From a virus: 30,040 nt of DNA. Position 1 is the stretch's first letter. Each line of letters starts with the position of its first letter. The DNA lies in the IMG/VR virus record IMGVR_UViG_3300029813_000184, positions 1-30,040 of that record; one strand, 5' to 3'. The translations under genes and the position numbers were made by a program. A model generated the notes under the pieces. It saw only the letters and a program-made list of their open reading frames with translations. It had not been told where the DNA came from and made no database searches. Positions 8,995-29,830 of the stretch are shown here, piece by piece.

Positions 8995-10836
8995 ATGCCA
9001 ACAATAACAAAACCGAAGGAAGAAACAAAAAAAGAAACAAAAGAAGAATCAGAAGTAGCCTTGGTGGGTAAACTACAAAAGTTTTGGCGGGAAGCAGAGG
9101 AAGGGAATGCCAGTTGGTTAGATAGAGCCATCAAAAATTATGACTTCTATTGTGGGAAGCAATGGGATCCTAAAACTTTGGCTAACCTGAAAAAAGAGAA
9201 AAGGCCTGCCCTTACCATTAACCATATTCTACCTACGGTCAATCTTTTATCGGGAATGGAAAGAGAAAACAGAAATGATATTCATGTACTTCCGAGAAAA
9301 GGTGGAAATAGAATGTCTGCTGATGTCTTCACCGGGCTGTCTAAACATTCTATGGACTTATCTAACGGTGAATTTGAGCAATCAATGCAGTTTTTAGATG
9401 GTGGTATAGGAGGGAAAGGTTGGATAGGGCTGGATATTTCTTATGAAAAAGACCCCATCAATGGGGATATTACCATAGGAAGAAATTCTTCTTTTGATAT
9501 AAAAGAAGATCCCAATGCCAAGACCTATGATTTGAATAAATCTGCCAAATATATAATCCGTTATTACTGGGGAGATAAGGAACAGGCTTATTTGCTCTAT
9601 CCCAAAAAATCAGAAGAATTAGCAAAATACTTGGAAAGTTATAGCGGTGAAGATGCTTTTGAAATGACCCCGGCAAAACAGACCGATACCGATATGTTAA
9701 GGCCTTCTACCTATCGCTACCGTATAAAAGAAACCTGGTGGAAATCTTACAAAAGACAATTATTCTTAATCGATAAGACAAATCTTATGTTTATCCCTGC
9801 TCACAAATCTCAAGAACCAGTCTTGGAGGCACTTCTTACTAAAGACCGGGAAATGGCAGAAAAAGAAAAGAGACCATTAAGATATAACACCATCGAGAGG
9901 GTAATCCCAGTTATGAATGTTACCACCACTATGGGAGATGTTGTTTTGGAAAATATAGAAGATCCCTTCAGTGGTTTGACTCTATTTCCCTATATAAGAT
10001 TCTGTCCTTACTGGTCAGATGGTTACACCTTTGGAATTGTAGATAATTTAATATCTCCTCAAGAAGAGGTAAACAAAACTTCCTCAGGGATATTACATAT
10101 ATTAAATCGTACCGCTAACACCGGTTGGCTGAATAAGAAAATTAGTGGAGCAGTTACGAAGGTCTTAGAAACATTTGGATCGAAAGCAGGGATAGTAATT
10201 GAATATAAAGATGTGCCACCTACAAAGATAGAACCAAATACCTTACCTGCCGGACATTTTACTCACAAAATAGACTCTGTTCAAAACATAAGAGACATAT
10301 CCGGTGTAAATACCGCCAGTGTGGGAGCAGGAACCAAAGAGGAATCGGGTATAGCAATGTTAAGGAGACAGAGACAGGGAGCAGTTATATCGAATGTAGT
10401 TTTTGACAATTATAAACTTACTCAACAAATTTTCGGTGAAACCTTAATAGAGTTTATCCGGCATACCAACGTTTATTCCCCCAGCGAAATAGCCGAGATA
10501 TGTATTGAAGAAAAGATAAAAATAGACCCTAATCAGTTAGCTAAGGCAATACGCTCATTTAGAGTAGGCCATTACGGCATCAAAGTTTCTTCCAGGCCTT
10601 CTACTCCGACTATACGCCTGGCTAATTTTGAAATGTTAGCCAGACTGGCCGAAATGGGTATGCCTATACCAATTGATATTTTACTGGATAGCATGGATAT
10701 TCCTCGAAAAGAGGAAATAATCCAAAGAGTTAAACAGCAACAGGCACAACAGATGCAAATGCAACAGCAAGGACAAGCACAAAAAGGAAGAGCATCACCA
10801 CCGAAGCAGCAAAGTCTTGTAGGGAGAGCGATGTAA
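8995..10836 (+). CDS. Portal protein, P22-type
   Basis: 613 residues from ATG 8995; the open frame extends to TTG 8971, but that lies inside the terminator and is rejected. No ribosome site precedes ATG 8995, which is unusual for this genome. The N-terminal third has the P22-like portal layout: RAIKNYDFYCGKQWDP, KRPALTINHILPTVNLLSG, then GIGGKGWIGLDISYE and a SFDIKEDPNAKTYDL segment. After about residue 440 there is a helical stem/crown region, and the C-terminus (about 575-600) is Gln/Met-rich low-complexity (QQQAQQMQMQQQGQAQ). Role: dodecameric ring at one capsid vertex through which DNA enters and leaves, contacting the terminase and the neck proteins. Its TAA overlaps the ATG of an HNH endonuclease gene. 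Confidence 0.9.
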   Translation: MPTITKPKEETKKETKEESEVALVGKLQKFWREAEEGNASWLDRAIKNYDFYCGKQWDPKTLANLKKEKRPALTINHILPTVNLLSGMERENRNDIHVLPRKGGNRMSADVFTGLSKHSMDLSNGEFEQSMQFLDGGIGGKGWIGLDISYEKDPINGDITIGRNSSFDIKEDPNAKTYDLNKSAKYIIRYYWGDKEQAYLLYPKKSEELAKYLESYSGEDAFEMTPAKQTDTDMLRPSTYRYRIKETWWKSYKRQLFLIDKTNLMFIPAHKSQEPVLEALLTKDREMAEKEKRPLRYNTIERVIPVMNVTTTMGDVVLENIEDPFSGLTLFPYIRFCPYWSDGYTFGIVDNLISPQEEVNKTSSGILHILNRTANTGWLNKKISGAVTKVLETFGSKAGIVIEYKDVPPTKIEPNTLPAGHFTHKIDSVQNIRDISGVNTASVGAGTKEESGIAMLRRQRQGAVISNVVFDNYKLTQQIFGETLIEFIRHTNVYSPSEIAEICIEEKIKIDPNQLAKAIRSFRVGHYGIKVSSRPSTPTIRLANFEMLARLAEMGMPIPIDILLDSMDIPRKEEIIQRVKQQQAQQMQMQQQGQAQKGRASPPKQQSLVGRAM

Positions 10837-11348
10837 TGCCATCTAAAGAATATTACTGGAAACATAGAGAAAAGTGTATAAAAGAATCTCTAAAGTGGCA
10901 AAAAGACAACGTAGAGGCTTGTAAAAAATCTGATGAAAAGTGGAATGAATCAGAAAAAGGTAAGATAGCACATAAAAATTTTCGAGAAGCTAATCCAGAA
11001 AAATGTAAAAAATGGACAATGAATTGGAAGAAAAATAATCGTGAAAAGGTAAATAAAAATGATAGAGATTGGCGAAGTAAAAATCCAGAAGCTTATAAAG
11101 AATCTCAAAAACGATTTCAAAAAAATAATCCAAAGAAGATGAAAGAATATTGGCGAAAACATGAATCCAAAAGAAGAGCTTTAGGGTTTGAACCTTTAAA
11201 TAAACCCTTCGAAAATTCAGAAGCTCATCATATAAGCCAAAATTTGGTAATTTATATACCTATAAAAATCCATCAGAATATTTCTCATTGCATTTGGACT
11301 TGGAAAAATATGGATAAAATTAATAAACTTGCAATACAGTTTGTTTAA
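10836..11348 (+). CDS. HNH-type free-standing homing endonuclease (putative)
   Basis: 170 residues; ATG overlaps the portal stop (TAATG), AGGGAGAG upstream. Residues 1-105 consist of very basic repeats of about 16 residues built on (W)xxKNNPExxKK, likely a DNA-tracking region. The C-terminus carries EAHHISQNLVIYIPIKIHQ, followed by HCIWTWKNMDKINKLA, matching the HHI...VIYIPxxLHxxIxHNxxTGxxMxxIN pattern of small phage HNH enzymes, though with Gln/Lys replacing some usual residues. Family role: site-specific nicking or cutting that spreads the gene to uninserted relatives. Its position between portal and scaffold, two genes normally adjacent, supports insertion. Activity is unproven. Confidence 0.75.
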   Translation: MPSKEYYWKHREKCIKESLKWQKDNVEACKKSDEKWNESEKGKIAHKNFREANPEKCKKWTMNWKKNNREKVNKNDRDWRSKNPEAYKESQKRFQKNNPKKMKEYWRKHESKRRALGFEPLNKPFENSEAHHISQNLVIYIPIKIHQNISHCIWTWKNMDKINKLAIQFV

Positions 11349-16901: not shown

Positions 16902-17372
16902 ATGATAGAAAAAACTATTCTTGCTTATACAGCAGGTCTATTAGATGGAGATGGGTGTATTCAAATAAGTAGCGTTGAGCCTAATAATAAAGGCACACAA
17001 AAGACAAAGTACCATAATCTTAGCGTGCAAATTACAAATACAAACAAAGAAGTAATAAATTGGCTTAAAGATATATTTGGTGGATTTATTACAAGTAGGT
17101 ATAGTCTTCCTAGTTCAAGGAAGGACTGCAAAACTGGCTTTGTTTGGCATATTGCGACAATCCAAGCTAAAGATTTTCTCGAATCAATTTATCCATATCT
17201 TATCATAAAAAAGAAACAGGCTGACCTTGCTATAAGATTTCAAGAGAATAAAAAATCTATGAGAAAAAAAGAAATAAATTTTAAACTCAAAGAAGTTGTC
17301 AAACGGAACTGGTATCAACAAGAAATTAGCAAATTAAACGGAGGAAAATTAATAAGTGATATTAAAAAGTGA
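16902..17372 (+). CDS. LAGLIDADG homing endonuclease
   Basis: 156 residues with a single YTAGLLDGDGCIQI motif at residues about 9-22, the LAGLIDADG helix whose acidic residue takes part in catalysis. QITNTNKEVINWLKDIFGG and VWHIATIQAKDFLESIYPYL follow in the order usual for the family. Single-motif members act as homodimers. It is inserted between the basic-peptide genes and the neck adaptor, and its last 17 bases overlap the adaptor's start, so it is integrated in the translation of the operon. No intron boundaries were evident around it, so it appears to be free-standing. Confidence 0.9.
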   Translation: MIEKTILAYTAGLLDGDGCIQISSVEPNNKGTQKTKYHNLSVQITNTNKEVINWLKDIFGGFITSRYSLPSSRKDCKTGFVWHIATIQAKDFLESIYPYLIIKKKQADLAIRFQENKKSMRKKEINFKLKEVVKRNWYQQEISKLNGGKLISDIKK

Positions 17373-23657: not shown

Positions 23658-26600
23658 ATGAATATTTGGGAATATATAAAAACTATAGAAGGGAAGGAAG
23701 AGGAAGAAAAAAAAGAGCAGCTAAAAGCTGTTTCAGGTGGCGGTGGTGCAGTAGGGGTAATTGAGAAGGAAGAAGAACCTGAAGATCCGTTGGTATTGCT
23801 CAATGAATCCATCGAGGATAAATATAAAGAATTTACTAAACTTCAAAAAACACTTTCTGCATTTACCTTAGAGGGAATACCTCAAGCGATACAACCAAGT
23901 ATTGTAGCCAACTACAACAAACAGATTGATAGATTCAATTCTCTGATTGGTGAATTACAGATTAACATTGCCGAGAGAGACCAGATACAATCTACCTTGA
24001 AGAAACAAGATTTTGTAAAAAGAAAGCAATTTGGAATTTACCAACCCCAACCTGAAGTAAAACCTCAACCGCAGGAGAGCGGATTGAAAGATATATGGGA
24101 CGCTTTTAGATTGGGTGCGAGTGGTATGTTTCATAGATCCAAACAATATTTTTCTTCTGCTTTGCCTAATATGATATTCCGAGACTTGACAGTTAATGAT
24201 ACGGTATCTCAATATGCTGGTATGACTGAAAGTCAAGTCGAAAAACTGAATATTGAAAATAGAAAAAAAAGAGAATCTTACAAAGAAGGATACATAAGAG
24301 GAGAAAGTAATTATAACCTATGGCTTCAGAAAAATCCCGAACTACAACCTCGCGAAGAGTGGGAAAAGGGGGTTATCGAAACCATAAGGGAAAATCCCAA
24401 AATATTAACTAAACCTGCTTACTGGGGATATGTGGCAGCCGAATCCGCAGCCTTTACTTTAGGGGTAATGGGGACTGTTTTAGCCACTACAGCGGTAACA
24501 GGAAATCCTTTAATCGGTTTAGCTTCAGGTGTTTTGATTGCGACTCCCATGCAAACTCAAGAACTTTATGAAGATTTAATTGATAATGGTGCAACCAAAG
24601 AACAGGCAACAAAATTAGCTATGCCCATCGGTGGAATAATTGCTGCTGTTGAAGTGATGGGAGATTTACCTATTCTTGCTTCTGTATCTGCTCCATTTAA
24701 AAAATTATTATTTGGGAATATAAGAAAAGGAGTGGTCAAGTCAGCAACAGGATTCTTAAAGAGAGGTATTAAAAGAGCTGTCCTCATCGAATTTAGTGAA
24801 ACATTAGAAGAAGTTGTGCAGGGTGCTATTCAGGACGCAACAGTAAAGACGGTAAACGAAAACAGGGATATGTTAGAGAACATCCCTGAAACTGTAGTAC
24901 ATACTTTGATAGCAACAGCTCCTTTTGCTCTGGTAGGTTTGGGGTCAGAGGTTCAGATTAATAAACAGTTACAGGAGAAAATAACAAATGTTAATTTCTT
25001 AAATGCAGTAAGAGTCCAGTTAGAAGAACAGGGTTTTATACCTCGAATGGAAGCGGAGGTATATGCTGCCGAACCTGAAAAATTGACTCCCAAAGAACTT
25101 GAAGCTAAACGTGAAATGCTACGAGGACGTGGAGTCAAAGAGGAATTGCTTACCGATGAGTTTGTTAAGATAGCCAGAGTTACCGAGATTCCTAAAGTTA
25201 AGGAAGAGAAGGTTGAGGAAGAAATGACCCCTGAGGAGTTGGAAGAACTTAGAGTATTAAGGGAAGCAAGGGTTGTCCCAGAGGAAGAGATAACCAAAGA
25301 GAAAGTGTTGGAGAAAGTTAAACCTGAGGCAAAATACCAATTACCAGCTATAACTGGGATAAGAACTGAACATCCAATACATTTTTATGTGAAATCTGAT
25401 GTTATTAACAAATTTAAAGATGCTAAAACTTTCAAAAGGAATATAGAGAAAGCAAGGAAAGTAGTTATTTCGGATAAAGAGTTAGACGATTTATCAAATT
25501 ATAATATTGAAGAAGAGTTCGGAAGTTTGGAAAATTATTATAATTGGGCAAAACAAAACAAAGCTAAAATAAAGGGTGTTAAGGAACAGTATGATAAATT
25601 TATTGATAAGTTACCAGTTGATGAGAAAACCAAAGCAATATGGAAAGAAGACCCGGAGAATTTTGAATTAAATTATGGAGATTATTTAAGAAGAGTTAAA
25701 CCAGAAGTAAAAGTTGAACCAAAGATAGAACCTAAAAAAGAAGATTTTGAAGCTCTAAAAACTACCGATAAAAACAAAGAACTTTTTTATGAAAAATATA
25801 ATAATGTCTATATAGAGACCAAAGGAAGTTATGATAAATTATTAGAGGAACAAGTTAAAAATCTTAAAGAGGAAGGATTTAAGGGCGTAGAAAAAGGAGG
25901 ACTTAAAAGAGATGAAGAAGGGAAAGTCATTGGTCGTTATCCTACTGTAAGCAAAAACCCAAAATGGTATAGAGATTTTTATGCACGAGAGAACAAAAAA
26001 CCGAGCGATGCAGATTTAAGGGAAATAGCCAGAGACCAATTATTAAGAGGGCATATTGAAGATTACGGAGAAGTCTCTGCTAATGAAACATTTATAAAAA
26101 TTGAAGCACAATTAGATAATTACGAAGCTATATTAAGTGATATCAAAGATGGTGATTATTCCTTCGAGACCCCTAAGAATGTAGAGAAACTTAATGAAAA
26201 ATTAAAGGAAATGAAGAAGGAAAATAAAAAAATAGTCAAAGATTTGAAGACAGAATTAGCCACATTAAAAGCGGAGAGAGAGGCTAAGTATGTAGGATTG
26301 AAAGAAGAAGTGGAGGCAGGAAAAAAAGTTGAAGTCGAAATAGGAATTAAGAAGGGTCTTAAAGTCGCTAAAGCAGAACTCAAAGGGAGGGCAATTAAAG
26401 GTATGCCAAAAGCAGAAATCAAGGAAGGCAATAAACTCATTCAGCAGATCCAGATGATGGTTAAAGACAGGGGCTTCACTAAAAAGCAATTTAGTGATAT
26501 CAAAATGACTCATGGAGGAGCAAGACACCTAACCGGCAAAACAAAGAGAATGACTATTCCCCAATTGAAAGCAGTCTTAAAAGCGGTGGAAAAAGCCAGA

Positions 26601-28964
26601 CCAAGACAAATAGGACACGAGAAAGTTGTTACCCTAAAAACGGAAAAGAAAATCCAATCCTTAAAAGATAATTTGATTGATAAACTACAAATGTCAGAAG
26701 AGGCTTATCAGAAAGTCCTAAAGGATGTGGGTATATATAAAGAACCCAAATATGTAGATGCCAAACACTTCATTACAGAGGAAAAGGGCAAGAAATTAAT
26801 ATATAGATTAATTGATGAATCCAACATTTTGAGAATAACTGAGCCATTAAGGATCGCCTTAGAAAAATTTCCTGAGGCAAAGAAAATAGCCGATGAATTA
26901 GACAAAAGAATAAGACTTGAAGGAAAGGAAAGGTTAAAAGACCCACATGAGCTGAACAGTATGCGTAAATATATACAGGTTATGGAAGGAATGACCGGTG
27001 CAAAGCTCTTTTCGATTTATCAAGATTTGATAGACTCTCATTTAGAAAACAGGGCAGACTTGAATAATTTAATAATGGAATTTGACGAGTATAGAGATGT
27101 CATCAAAGATGAGGAAGCCCTGAAAAGAGTAGAAATTTGGATACTTAACAAAAGCACTCTAAAGGGTGTGCCTAAGGTTTCCAAGAAAATCACCGAGGAG
27201 GAGATTGCCTTAGCCAAGAAAATTCAAGGTGTGTTAAAAGACTACGAAGTGAGGGCAAGGACTGAGAAATTCTTAGACAATATAGAAAATCTCAAAGGTA
27301 TGCCTCAATATATCGAATATAGGAAAGAAATTAACAAAGCTAAAGATATTTATGAAAGCAAAGGATACGATGAACTTGTTGACTATATGAAAACCCAAGA
27401 GTGGGGAGTAATCAAAAGCGGTTATGACCCCTTGCAGGTTGTGTCAGCTCAAGTGAGATTATATAAGGCGAAGTCCACTACTTTGGGTAAGACTCATATC
27501 GAAGTCAGAAAGGATATTGAATACAAGGAACAGGACAAAAATGTAATACAAAGACTATTTTCTTACAAAAGACAGATGGATAATCTGTCAGTTATGCGAC
27601 TCAAAATAAGAGCTTTTGTAACTTTGACAGAGGAAAATTTAGATAAATTCAAGGATCCCAACAGGGTGAAGACTAATATAGAAGTATTCTTTAGAGAACT
27701 AAAAGGTTACGACAGACCGGAGAATTGGTTTGACCGGGGGTTAAACCGTTTATATGCACAGGCTATGACCACGATTATTATGGGCAGTCCCGCCTTATCC
27801 TTTAGGAATTTAGGACAGAACATCGGACTCGGACACGATAAGATGATGCTGATTGATCCCAGAAATAAAAACCTTACTCCTGAGGAAATGGATTATTTAG
27901 AAACTTACGTTCAACAAGCAGAATTTATGAGGATAGATTGGTTTATGACTGGTGAGAAACCTTTGCCAGGATTAAAATTCTTGACCGATATAATTAAAAA
28001 AGTTAATCTATATCCCCGCTCTGATATTGCTAATAGACGTTGGGGATATTGGGCTAAAATCAATCAAGTAAGAATGGCTTTCGATAAAAATGTTTCGCTT
28101 GCGAAAAAGATGGAAGAAGCTAAATTTAGCGATATGACTTTGCTTGAACAGAAAAGGGCGTTGGAAATACTGTCTAAGGATGGTCAGAAAGCTATGGAAA
28201 AATATGTTGCCAGAGTTTATGTAGATGATGTCCATTTCATATATGAAAGAGCACAAAGAGCGCCTGCCGAGATGGGGAGGATGGGTAGAATAATGGGTAA
28301 CTTAATGCTATTCCCCAGAGCATACTGGGAAAAGTTAGCCCAACACTCCAAAAAAATGACTGACAAGAGAGCGCCTTTCAGAGAACAGGTGAGGGCTTTT
28401 AAAGTCATAGCTTCCGTCCTAATAGGTGGTGCTTTGGTGAGTGTAGCTTATAAAAAAATTACAGGTAGAAGAAAATCCCCTTATGATCCATTTGAATTGT
28501 TAGCTTATACACCTGGCGGGTTAGCAATACAAACAATAGGTGCGGTATCAGATGTGTTTACTAATATCGTTCTGGCTTCAAAGGGTGATGAAAAAGCTAT
28601 GGCTGATTTAACTACCGCTATACCAAATGCGTTAGATATGTTCGTTCCCTTTTATAATTATGCTCTAAGAGGTATTGAAGCTACTACCGATACTAAAAAT
28701 ATAGATAGATTAGCTTTGAGAAAATTGAGAATGTTAATTGATAAAGAATATCAAGTCAGAGGCGGAGCTTATAAATTAGAAAGAAATGCTATGGAAAAAT
28801 GGCAGTACTTTCTAAGTGGCGCTGGTATAGATGTGGCTATAAAAGAGAGAGAAAAGGAAGAGAGAGAAAAATTAAAGGCAAAACCTAAAATTGAAGAACC
28901 TAAAGGATTTGGGGGAAAAGGTTTAATATCTGTTGGTGCAGAACCTAAAGGATTTGGTGATTAA
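23658..28964 (+). CDS. Very large putative ejection protein (1768 aa)
   Basis: Starts one base after the previous stop. Residues 1-250 are helical and charged. Hydrophobic segments occur at about 257-298, 321-346 and 412-429 (AESAAFTLGVMGTVLATTAV; IGGIIAAVEVMGDLPILASV; VVHTLIATAPFALVGLG), and another at about 1583-1600 (VIASVLIGGALVSVAY). The middle thousand residues are mostly Lys/Glu-rich helix with coiled-coil stretches. The C-terminal region, with MGRIMGNLMLFPRAYWEKLAQ and DMFVPFYNYALRGIEATT, resembles the end of large polyvalent/ejection proteins of podoviruses. Function: likely carried in the head and released to help DNA cross the host envelope. No peptidoglycan hydrolase motif was found by eye. 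It carries EPKGFG near residue 1747 and ends with EPKGFGD. Confidence 0.68.
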   Translation: MNIWEYIKTIEGKEEEEKKEQLKAVSGGGGAVGVIEKEEEPEDPLVLLNESIEDKYKEFTKLQKTLSAFTLEGIPQAIQPSIVANYNKQIDRFNSLIGELQINIAERDQIQSTLKKQDFVKRKQFGIYQPQPEVKPQPQESGLKDIWDAFRLGASGMFHRSKQYFSSALPNMIFRDLTVNDTVSQYAGMTESQVEKLNIENRKKRESYKEGYIRGESNYNLWLQKNPELQPREEWEKGVIETIRENPKILTKPAYWGYVAAESAAFTLGVMGTVLATTAVTGNPLIGLASGVLIATPMQTQELYEDLIDNGATKEQATKLAMPIGGIIAAVEVMGDLPILASVSAPFKKLLFGNIRKGVVKSATGFLKRGIKRAVLIEFSETLEEVVQGAIQDATVKTVNENRDMLENIPETVVHTLIATAPFALVGLGSEVQINKQLQEKITNVNFLNAVRVQLEEQGFIPRMEAEVYAAEPEKLTPKELEAKREMLRGRGVKEELLTDEFVKIARVTEIPKVKEEKVEEEMTPEELEELRVLREARVVPEEEITKEKVLEKVKPEAKYQLPAITGIRTEHPIHFYVKSDVINKFKDAKTFKRNIEKARKVVISDKELDDLSNYNIEEEFGSLENYYNWAKQNKAKIKGVKEQYDKFIDKLPVDEKTKAIWKEDPENFELNYGDYLRRVKPEVKVEPKIEPKKEDFEALKTTDKNKELFYEKYNNVYIETKGSYDKLLEEQVKNLKEEGFKGVEKGGLKRDEEGKVIGRYPTVSKNPKWYRDFYARENKKPSDADLREIARDQLLRGHIEDYGEVSANETFIKIEAQLDNYEAILSDIKDGDYSFETPKNVEKLNEKLKEMKKENKKIVKDLKTELATLKAEREAKYVGLKEEVEAGKKVEVEIGIKKGLKVAKAELKGRAIKGMPKAEIKEGNKLIQQIQMMVKDRGFTKKQFSDIKMTHGGARHLTGKTKRMTIPQLKAVLKAVEKARPRQIGHEKVVTLKTEKKIQSLKDNLIDKLQMSEEAYQKVLKDVGIYKEPKYVDAKHFITEEKGKKLIYRLIDESNILRITEPLRIALEKFPEAKKIADELDKRIRLEGKERLKDPHELNSMRKYIQVMEGMTGAKLFSIYQDLIDSHLENRADLNNLIMEFDEYRDVIKDEEALKRVEIWILNKSTLKGVPKVSKKITEEEIALAKKIQGVLKDYEVRARTEKFLDNIENLKGMPQYIEYRKEINKAKDIYESKGYDELVDYMKTQEWGVIKSGYDPLQVVSAQVRLYKAKSTTLGKTHIEVRKDIEYKEQDKNVIQRLFSYKRQMDNLSVMRLKIRAFVTLTEENLDKFKDPNRVKTNIEVFFRELKGYDRPENWFDRGLNRLYAQAMTTIIMGSPALSFRNLGQNIGLGHDKMMLIDPRNKNLTPEEMDYLETYVQQAEFMRIDWFMTGEKPLPGLKFLTDIIKKVNLYPRSDIANRRWGYWAKINQVRMAFDKNVSLAKKMEEAKFSDMTLLEQKRALEILSKDGQKAMEKYVARVYVDDVHFIYERAQRAPAEMGRMGRIMGNLMLFPRAYWEKLAQHSKKMTDKRAPFREQVRAFKVIASVLIGGALVSVAYKKITGRRKSPYDPFELLAYTPGGLAIQTIGAVSDVFTNIVLASKGDEKAMADLTTAIPNALDMFVPFYNYALRGIEATTDTKNIDRLALRKLRMLIDKEYQVRGGAYKLERNAMEKWQYFLSGAGIDVAIKEREKEEREKLKAKPKIEEPKGFGGKGLISVGAEPKGFGD

Positions 28965-28984
28965 TCTCCGAACCCTGCTGGTTC
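28941..28984. repeat. Imperfect palindrome at the convergent gene ends encoding EPxGFGD on both strands
   Basis: The 22-base arms (28941-28962 and 28963-28984) match at 16 positions and centre on GATTAATC, where the stop codons of the plus and minus genes overlap by four bases. Read on either strand, each arm ends in a codon set for EPxGFGD followed by TAA. Four of six mismatches are synonymous third-base changes; the other two fall in the one differing codon (AAA Lys versus GCA Ala). It could also form a weak hairpin, but no T tract follows on either side. Confidence 0.8.
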
Positions 28985-29152
28985 TTTAATAGGAAAATAT
29001 ATTCTTACTTGTGTTACCTGACCAGTTATTCTGTTTAATTTATATATACTTCCTGAACGATTTATTAACTGATATTTTGGGATTAAAAAATAGGCTACTG
29101 AAATGATTAATAGAATGATTAAAAAATAAATAATGGAACGGGGGATTTTCAT
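28961..29152 (-). CDS. Single-pass membrane protein ending in EPAGFGD
   Basis: ATG 29152 after GGTTAGGAGG, 63 residues. The frame extends upstream but those residues are antisense to the lipoprotein end and lack a ribosome site, so 29152 is preferred. Residues about 5-25 (RSIIYFLIILLIISVAYFLI) form one transmembrane segment; the tail is polar and ends IKEPAGFGD. It follows the lipoprotein gene by 13 bases and its ribosome site overlaps that gene's stop, so the two form an operon. The C-terminal tag is nearly identical to the one ending the large ejection-type protein on the other strand. Function unknown. Confidence 0.7.
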   Translation of the reverse strand: MKIPRSIIYFLIILLIISVAYFLIPKYQLINRSGSIYKLNRITGQVTQVRIYFPIKEPAGFGD

Positions 29153-29165
29153 AAGAGAATACCTC

Positions 29166-29642
29166 CTAACCTTTAATAAAAATGGTAGTTCCTGAAGCGG
29201 AATCAGAATAACCATATACGCTGACAATTTGAATCCAAGTTCCACTTCCAGAGATACCACTGGAATTAATAGTACCTTCAAAATAGATAATAGTGGATAC
29301 AGTTGAACCATAAACATTTAAATAACTTCCGCTGATATTTGCGTTGATGATAGAGTTTTTAAATGTTCCGTAGCCTGTATTCCAGTTGATGAATGGTTGA
29401 CCGACAATATAAAAATTATAAAGAGTGAGTGAACCATTATTAACAACAATATTACATTTTGCGGTTGTAACTGCACCAATATCAGCAATTTGTGAAGAAG
29501 TAGTAAAAGTAGTAGTATTAGTCGTTGTCCAATTACCAGTTAGATCAGTTGCAGGTGTGGTAACTCCACCGCAACCCGATAAAAGGATAGTAAAAATTAA
29601 AAATAAAATTAGAATTTTGGGGATTTTACTTAAAACTTTCAC
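29166..29642 (-). CDS. Phage-encoded lipoprotein (lipobox LSGC)
   Basis: GTG 29642 with GGAGGTGG at about eight bases; 158 residues. The N-terminus KVLSKIPKILILFLIFTILLSGCGG is a textbook type-II signal peptide: basic start, hydrophobic core, lipobox LLSGC. The mature part is Thr/Ser/Asn/Gly-rich and beta-stranded (LTGNWTTTNTTTF; VYGYSDSASGTTIFIKG), with no enzyme motif. In phages, lipoproteins of this kind often block superinfection or modify the cell surface; that role is inferred, not shown. It has its own strong promoter and runs against its rightward neighbours, as expected of a moron gene. Confidence 0.82.
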   Translation of the reverse strand: MKVLSKIPKILILFLIFTILLSGCGGVTTPATDLTGNWTTTNTTTFTTSSQIADIGAVTTAKCNIVVNNGSLTLYNFYIVGQPFINWNTGYGTFKNSIINANISGSYLNVYGSTVSTIIYFEGTINSSGISGSGTWIQIVSVYGYSDSASGTTIFIKG

Positions 29643-29710: not shown

Positions 29711-29830
29711 ATGGCTTGGACAAAAGTAGATAGAGAAAAAGAGGATTTCACTAAAGTAGATAAAGAAAGAGAAGATTGGACTAAAGTAGACAGAGAAAAA
29801 GGGGATTGGGATAAAAAAGATAAGGAGTAA
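29711..29830 (+). CDS. Tandem-repeat small peptide (39 aa)
   Basis: ATG 29711 after AAGGAGG; 39 residues made of four 10-residue units: WTKVDREKED, FTKVDKERED, WTKVDREKGD and WDKKDKE. The three full copies are near identical at the DNA level (30-base period). The protein is hydrophilic and likely disordered apart from the regularly spaced Trp/Phe. Similar Trp-containing repeat peptides occur in phages near lysis genes, but the role is unknown. Its ribosome site lies in the -35 region of the leftward lipoprotein promoter. Confidence 0.65.
   Translation: MAWTKVDREKEDFTKVDKEREDWTKVDREKGDWDKKDKE

Follow-up and report, generated by a model that had tools for sequence, protein, structure and literature searches.

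The virus record IMGVR_UViG_3300029813_000184, analysed over its entire 30,040 bases (the window below), contains two convergent genes, one for a giant polyvalent-type protein and one for a small membrane protein, whose products end in the same peptide, EPxGFGD. Matched terminal peptides were found in all four pairs of this kind, in each of which the small gene faces, in convergent orientation, a large gene that is homologous or mosaic, and the two stop codons overlap by exactly four nucleotides. The motif differs from pair to pair and changes in both partners together. This pattern suggests that the peptide is a fast-changing recognition tag, and the tag perhaps has a role in shutting out sibling phages.

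The large gene of the window (23658-28964, plus strand) closes the virion gene block and encodes a polyvalent or ejection-type protein of 1768 amino acids, which ends in IEEPKGFGGKGLISVGAEPKGFGD, that is, in a terminal EPKGFGD; the C-terminal stretch of the same open reading frame reads KIEEPKGFGGKGLISVGAEPKGFGD. Two tag copies lie here, EPKGFG from residue 1747 onward (28896-28913) and the terminal EPKGFGD (28941-28961), whose EPKGFG begins at residue 1762. These copies are recent DNA duplicates, identical at 20 of 21 nucleotides. The small gene (28961-29152, minus strand; ATG at 29152, ribosome-binding site AGGAGG at 29162-29167) encodes a single-span membrane protein of 63 amino acids ending in FPIKEPAGFGD, with the terminal EPAGFGD at 28964-28984, and the stop codons share TTAA (28961-28964). 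An earlier note, made from the letters of the window, had reported the EPxGFGD ends, the second EPKGFG copy and the four-base overlap, all of which were recovered from the open reading frames. Among 6670 pairs of open reading frames in the window, the large and small proteins form the top C-anchored match, and their similarity is therefore beyond chance. The copy on the opposite strand is not a DNA duplicate, because the same codon is used at two of the six identical residues against 2.76 expected from codon usage. Six of 21 positions differ between the facing tags, four of them synonymous third positions and two in the K/A codon, just as the earlier note had described for an imperfect palindrome in which one residue differs.

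Used as a lone query, the small protein found no relatives among viral contigs. Its homolog in the genome L011 (the gene L014) was recognized at E = 1.1e-4, and a two-sequence alignment of the window and L011 small proteins, scanned against viral contigs, brought out further homologs in L035 and L036; at least three homologs thus occur in other viral contigs, giving at least four convergent pairs with that of the window. No relative was found in about 400 genomes of the phylum to which the host of L007, another large-protein locus, belongs. The body of the L011 protein is 67% identical to that of L035 (residues 1-72) and 66% identical to that of L036 (residues 1-58), and the window protein is more distant from its homologs (about 32-35%). 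The last 20 or so residues vary between these homologs, yet match the large protein encoded on the other strand. In L011, the large protein ends in GKKFSF and the small one in GHKYRF, the top C-anchored pair of 5356 in that genome. A prediction drawn from the window and L011 held in both new cases, each with a new motif: in L036 the small protein ends in SGESTKLKFRF and the large one in NIQSTKLKFNF, and in L035 the small protein ends in GKIKINKIRLID and the large one in IPKINKIKINKISPIKVSF, with the heptapeptide KIKINKI in common. In a tail-by-tail matrix, the own partner gave the row maximum throughout (35, 18, 33 and 40), and the L036 tail also scored 39 against the near-identical tail of L007. 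Non-homologous membrane open reading frames convergent with the large genes of L002, L010 and L012 served as controls and were unmatched (p = 0.21, 0.07 and 0.97), indicating that convergent position alone does not yield matching tails and that the sharing belongs to the small-protein family. By sequence comparison, then, all four pairs carry matched tags, the tags co-vary, and the tail is modular. The idea of a common recognition tag, put forward in the earlier note, is strengthened, since both tails change together in every relative that has a small-gene homolog. Relatives in which one gene ends differently had been named there as evidence against a tag; the tails do end differently in the literal sense, yet the co-change of both is what a tag predicts. 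EPxGFGD itself is not a general phage tag: its sole other match in IMG/VR ends no open reading frame of at least 30 amino acids. No description of such matched tags was found in the literature searched, which left out most subscription journals.

It is the peptide that is under selection: as far as codons can tell, the matching is at the peptide level, not at the level of DNA. Over the four pairs, mismatches fall mostly at third positions (15 of 28, against 5 of 56 at other positions; Fisher 1.4e-5), with the proviso that the test is biased by the alignment of the pairs by peptide and that codon sharing is the less biased form. The codon is shared at 11 of 23 identical residues against 12.4 expected from codon usage, so that no DNA-level identity is left to explain. 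The claim made from the window, that both strands are under selection for the peptide, is thus supported by the four covarying pairs and the peptide-level match; the window pattern by itself was insufficient for it (codon-position Fisher p = 0.06). Template switching at the junction might have carried the terminal part of one gene over into its neighbour as an inverted duplication, leaving the match as a hitch-hiking by-product of little function. This would fit the symmetry of the tags about the four-nucleotide overlap in the window, L011 and L036, where any palindrome would yield one peptide from both strands. It is nevertheless highly improbable, as four lineages carry four motifs with no excess of synonymous identity, mismatches lie at third positions, and the L035 motif is four residues from one stop and seven from the other. 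With such unequal distances, DNA symmetry or a palindrome cannot be the cause.

The window palindrome (28940-28985; arms 28940-28962 and 28963-28985) is a 74% inverted repeat, and the hairpin into which the facing tags fold has a z of -4.1 for the plus strand and -2.9 for the minus strand; the junction of L036 gives a z of about -3. Even so, a DNA or RNA hairpin that happens to encode the peptides, for example a bidirectional terminator, is hardly credible as an explanation. The energy of the window hairpin, -22.1 kcal/mol, equals the mean of -22.08 for random synonymous recoding of both tails, and equally stable recoded tails mean that the hairpin adds no signal beyond the shared peptide. The hairpin of L035 is weak, and a stable one was looked for at the L011 junction and was absent. 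The window junction has no terminator-like site and no match to an Rfam family, and a GC-rich hairpin followed by a T run, as in intrinsic bidirectional terminators, is not conserved at the junction. A terminator or hairpin origin was rejected on these grounds (equal recoding energies, no terminator-like site, no conservation), and L035 and L011 rule out the hairpin as cause of the peptide match. The palindrome is a by-product of two facing tags and not a terminator.

The tails of other large proteins indicate how the tag changes. L002 carries three copies of [IF]DIRKEF, L007, a locus in a Bacillota metagenome-assembled genome, KLKFNF, L011 GKKFTF followed by GKKFSF, and L010 HRVR. A tail module, GKLIFTKPKLNI[KQ]STKLKFNF, is common to L036 and L007 on differing C-terminal domains, and the C-terminal domains of L007 and L011 are 85% identical with different tails. 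Since a tail is shared across domains and a domain across tails, tags move and change independently of the folded protein. A shared host partner, such as a translocon, chaperone or protease that handles both proteins, could account for one tag on two otherwise unrelated proteins, the tags then differing with the hosts; the L007/L011 comparison makes this quite unlikely, because there the tails are replaced more quickly than the body.

In each genome, the motif is a terminal feature of the large protein and, at its C-terminus, of the small one; other matches are short, scattered and attributable to chance. The large protein of L011 has KKFxF four times, at both ends (shuffle mean 0.065), and motifs at both ends are also found in L007 ([RK]LKF three times) and L035. 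The N- and C-terminal repeats of L002 are distinct from each other, the copies in the window are all C-terminal, and the contig of L036 lacks the N-terminus of the large protein. The tag may in principle be a short strand that pairs with its own copy, which would join the N- and C-termini of large-protein subunits and let the membrane protein bind an incoming large protein. Such like-with-like matching needs no partner, and STKLKFNF, KIKINKI and KKFTF alternate lysine with hydrophobic residues as amphipathic strands do. We regard it as unlikely, because EPxGFGD and DIRKEFGD are not strand-like and lysine-rich strands are mutually repulsive.

The large protein has the features of a very large mosaic encoded in a virion block: it follows portal, virion and ejection-type genes, and its relatives exchange domains. 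It is 52% identical to the L002 protein and about 57% identical to the L007 and L011 proteins over the last 815 or so amino acids; L010 and, more distantly, L012 and L031 encode further relatives. No Pfam domain was found in the window protein, and the L011 relative contains ART-PolyVal PF18760 (33.9 bits against a cut-off of 31.2). Polyvalent proteins of such kind are thought to be packaged and injected (PMC5512222). The large protein is probably of this type, packaged in the virion, as we infer, and injected into the host. Its C-terminal region was modelled by AlphaFold at low confidence (mean predicted local distance difference test score 45), and the model was used only to note that the last 28 residues have no predicted structure. 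With tblastn against cultured-phage records, the window protein gave only a match of about 50 amino acids in Bacillus phages, L035 gave one distant match, and L011 and L012 gave none. In the same set of about 400 genomes, the large protein was found only in the L007 genome itself. A distant large protein with an L035-type C-terminal domain is encoded in L042 (MW202497.1, 1766-6514); it ends in GISFKVDTPSKSGKKISIKL and has KISIAQ/RVSVS near its N-terminus, which suggests that phages outside this group also have matched end motifs, and no convergent gene is present there. In nearly all relatives, whether or not they have the motif in common, the large protein has a run of glutamates (EEEEE) after its N-terminal stretch (L002 1591-1800; L007 2485-2640; L011 4063-4150; the N-terminus of L035; window 23658-23760). 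In L012 (3691-8634), three copies of RLT[AG]LLEATPxPRP form a lineage-specific N-terminal repeat, and no matching small gene is present.

All four small proteins have a single strong hydrophobic span, as expected of integral membrane proteins; in the window it covers residues 6-24 (29081-29137, minus strand), as judged by hydropathy. In three homologs the flanking charges are +3 or +4 before the span and -1 after it, and an N-in/C-out topology is predicted from them. AlphaFold gives the L035 homolog a helix at residues 2-28, three strands, and a low-confidence tail that bears the tag. This topology bears on a further explanation, in which the tag docks on a phage-encoded assembly partner (portal, scaffold or another ejection protein) and would serve head entry of the large protein and tethering or timing of the small one at the membrane. 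A phage-encoded partner accounts for lineage-specific co-variation, and in several relatives the large protein bears the motif at either end, which recalls a capsid-targeting peptide; for P1 DarB, the N-terminal 30 residues are enough for capsid targeting (PMC9024508). T4 internal proteins and P1 DarB have capsid-targeting sequences that send soluble proteins into heads (PMC9024508). The tag is likewise a short terminal peptide on a large injected protein, but its second carrier is a membrane protein, it can be N- as well as C-terminal, and it changes between lineages. The flanking charges of the three homologs also place the tagged tail outside the membrane, away from heads, and no other virion protein with a terminal tag was found in these genomes, where only the large and membrane proteins carry it and not several internal head proteins. 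Docking on an assembly partner therefore appears somewhat unlikely, and packaging into the head, one of the uses named in the earlier note, is hard to reconcile with the topology predicted for the membrane protein.

Phages are able to keep out their relatives with membrane proteins directed against ejected virion proteins, and the basis of specificity in such systems is poorly understood. By analogy, superinfection exclusion of phages with the same tag would be the use that fits best, where the exclusion, the topology and the binding partner are what we infer. The large, injected polyvalent-type protein would bear the current version of the tag on its flexible ends, and the single-span membrane protein, with its predicted N-in/C-out topology, would present a copy of that peptide beyond the cytoplasmic membrane, on a flexible tail. 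There the tail would have no contact with heads assembling in the cytoplasm and could meet proteins arriving from outside. The displayed tag may occupy a docking site needed by an incoming large protein with the same tag, or may capture that protein, and either event would stop entry of the sibling phage. Exclusion groups would be set by the turnover of tags: a new tag would free a phage from exclusion, yet its own pair would still need to match, and tag turnover would follow from this. That EPxGFG(D) is a lineage-specific recognition peptide copied on the outward tail of the membrane protein and used for self-exclusion is a reasonable, if tentative, reading of the sequences. A fuller compatibility system, with a private peptide on the ends of the giant protein, a dedicated membrane protein, entry judged by tag identity, and end-to-end genes that swap tags together, is possible and is put forward with greater reserve. 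A peptide that differs between lineages and is matched on an injected and a membrane protein would amount to a directly testable specificity code, and convergent genes with a four-nucleotide stop overlap and matched tails may offer a sequence signature for partners of uncharacterized giant phage proteins.

Several observations weigh against self-exclusion. First, the large proteins of L002, L007 and L010 have no small-protein homolog nearby, and the tag cannot depend on the small protein; given the tag arrays of L002 and L007, its primary role would lie in the large protein, with the small protein copying it. Second, the known pairs are only four, and the match in L011 is modest (G, K and F identical, plus H/K and Y/F; p = 0.07 with position free). 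Third, the window small protein lacks a clear positive-inside pattern (+2 against +3), and the small protein has no convincing match to exclusion families in Pfam, NCBIfam, PHROGs or PADLOC.

Known systems resemble self-exclusion by tags in part. P22 SieA, too, is a membrane protein encoded by a phage, its presumed targets are ejected virion proteins, and escape mutations lie in the C-terminal regions of the ejection proteins gp16 and gp20 (PMC10883804). SieA is longer, however, at 162-164 amino acids, and no sequence relation to the 63-residue small protein was found. We know of no peptide common to SieA and its target. The Ltp superinfection-exclusion lipoproteins are surface-exposed phage proteins that recognize the C-terminal end region of the injected tape measure protein, but they do so by charge complementarity through repeat domains and not by a copy of the same peptide (PMC3952083). 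Polyvalent proteins are also giant mosaic phage proteins, and the L011 relative carries ART-PolyVal; that study is on effector domains, and its passages on motifs and C-termini describe neither a terminal tag in common nor a membrane gene as partner (PMC5512222).

Directly upstream of the small gene lies a gene for a lipoprotein of 158 amino acids with the lipobox LSGC (29166-29642, minus strand), and the two are probably on one transcript. Over its leader, the lipoprotein weakly matches the Cor superinfection-exclusion family in PHROG (E = 0.025). An unrelated short membrane open reading frame in L002 (6781-6918, minus strand) has the same ribosome-binding site and leader (GGAGGTGGTTAGT, MKV.LSK.P), as if the 5′ end alone were conserved. 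A short gene of WTKVD[KR]E.ED repeats follows at 29711-29830 (plus strand). Related W-T/D-K repeats come directly after the large gene in L002 (7392-7553), close an 802-residue protein in L011, and are found in L007 (7949-8458) and L036 (6557-6874), so that a low-complexity array recurs in this neighbourhood. Elsewhere in the window, the open reading frame at 16902-17372 (plus strand) matches HNH-endonuclease families (PHROG 5046), and that at 10836-11348 (plus strand) is likely mobile, a relative of it being inserted right after the large gene of L002 (6979-7383).
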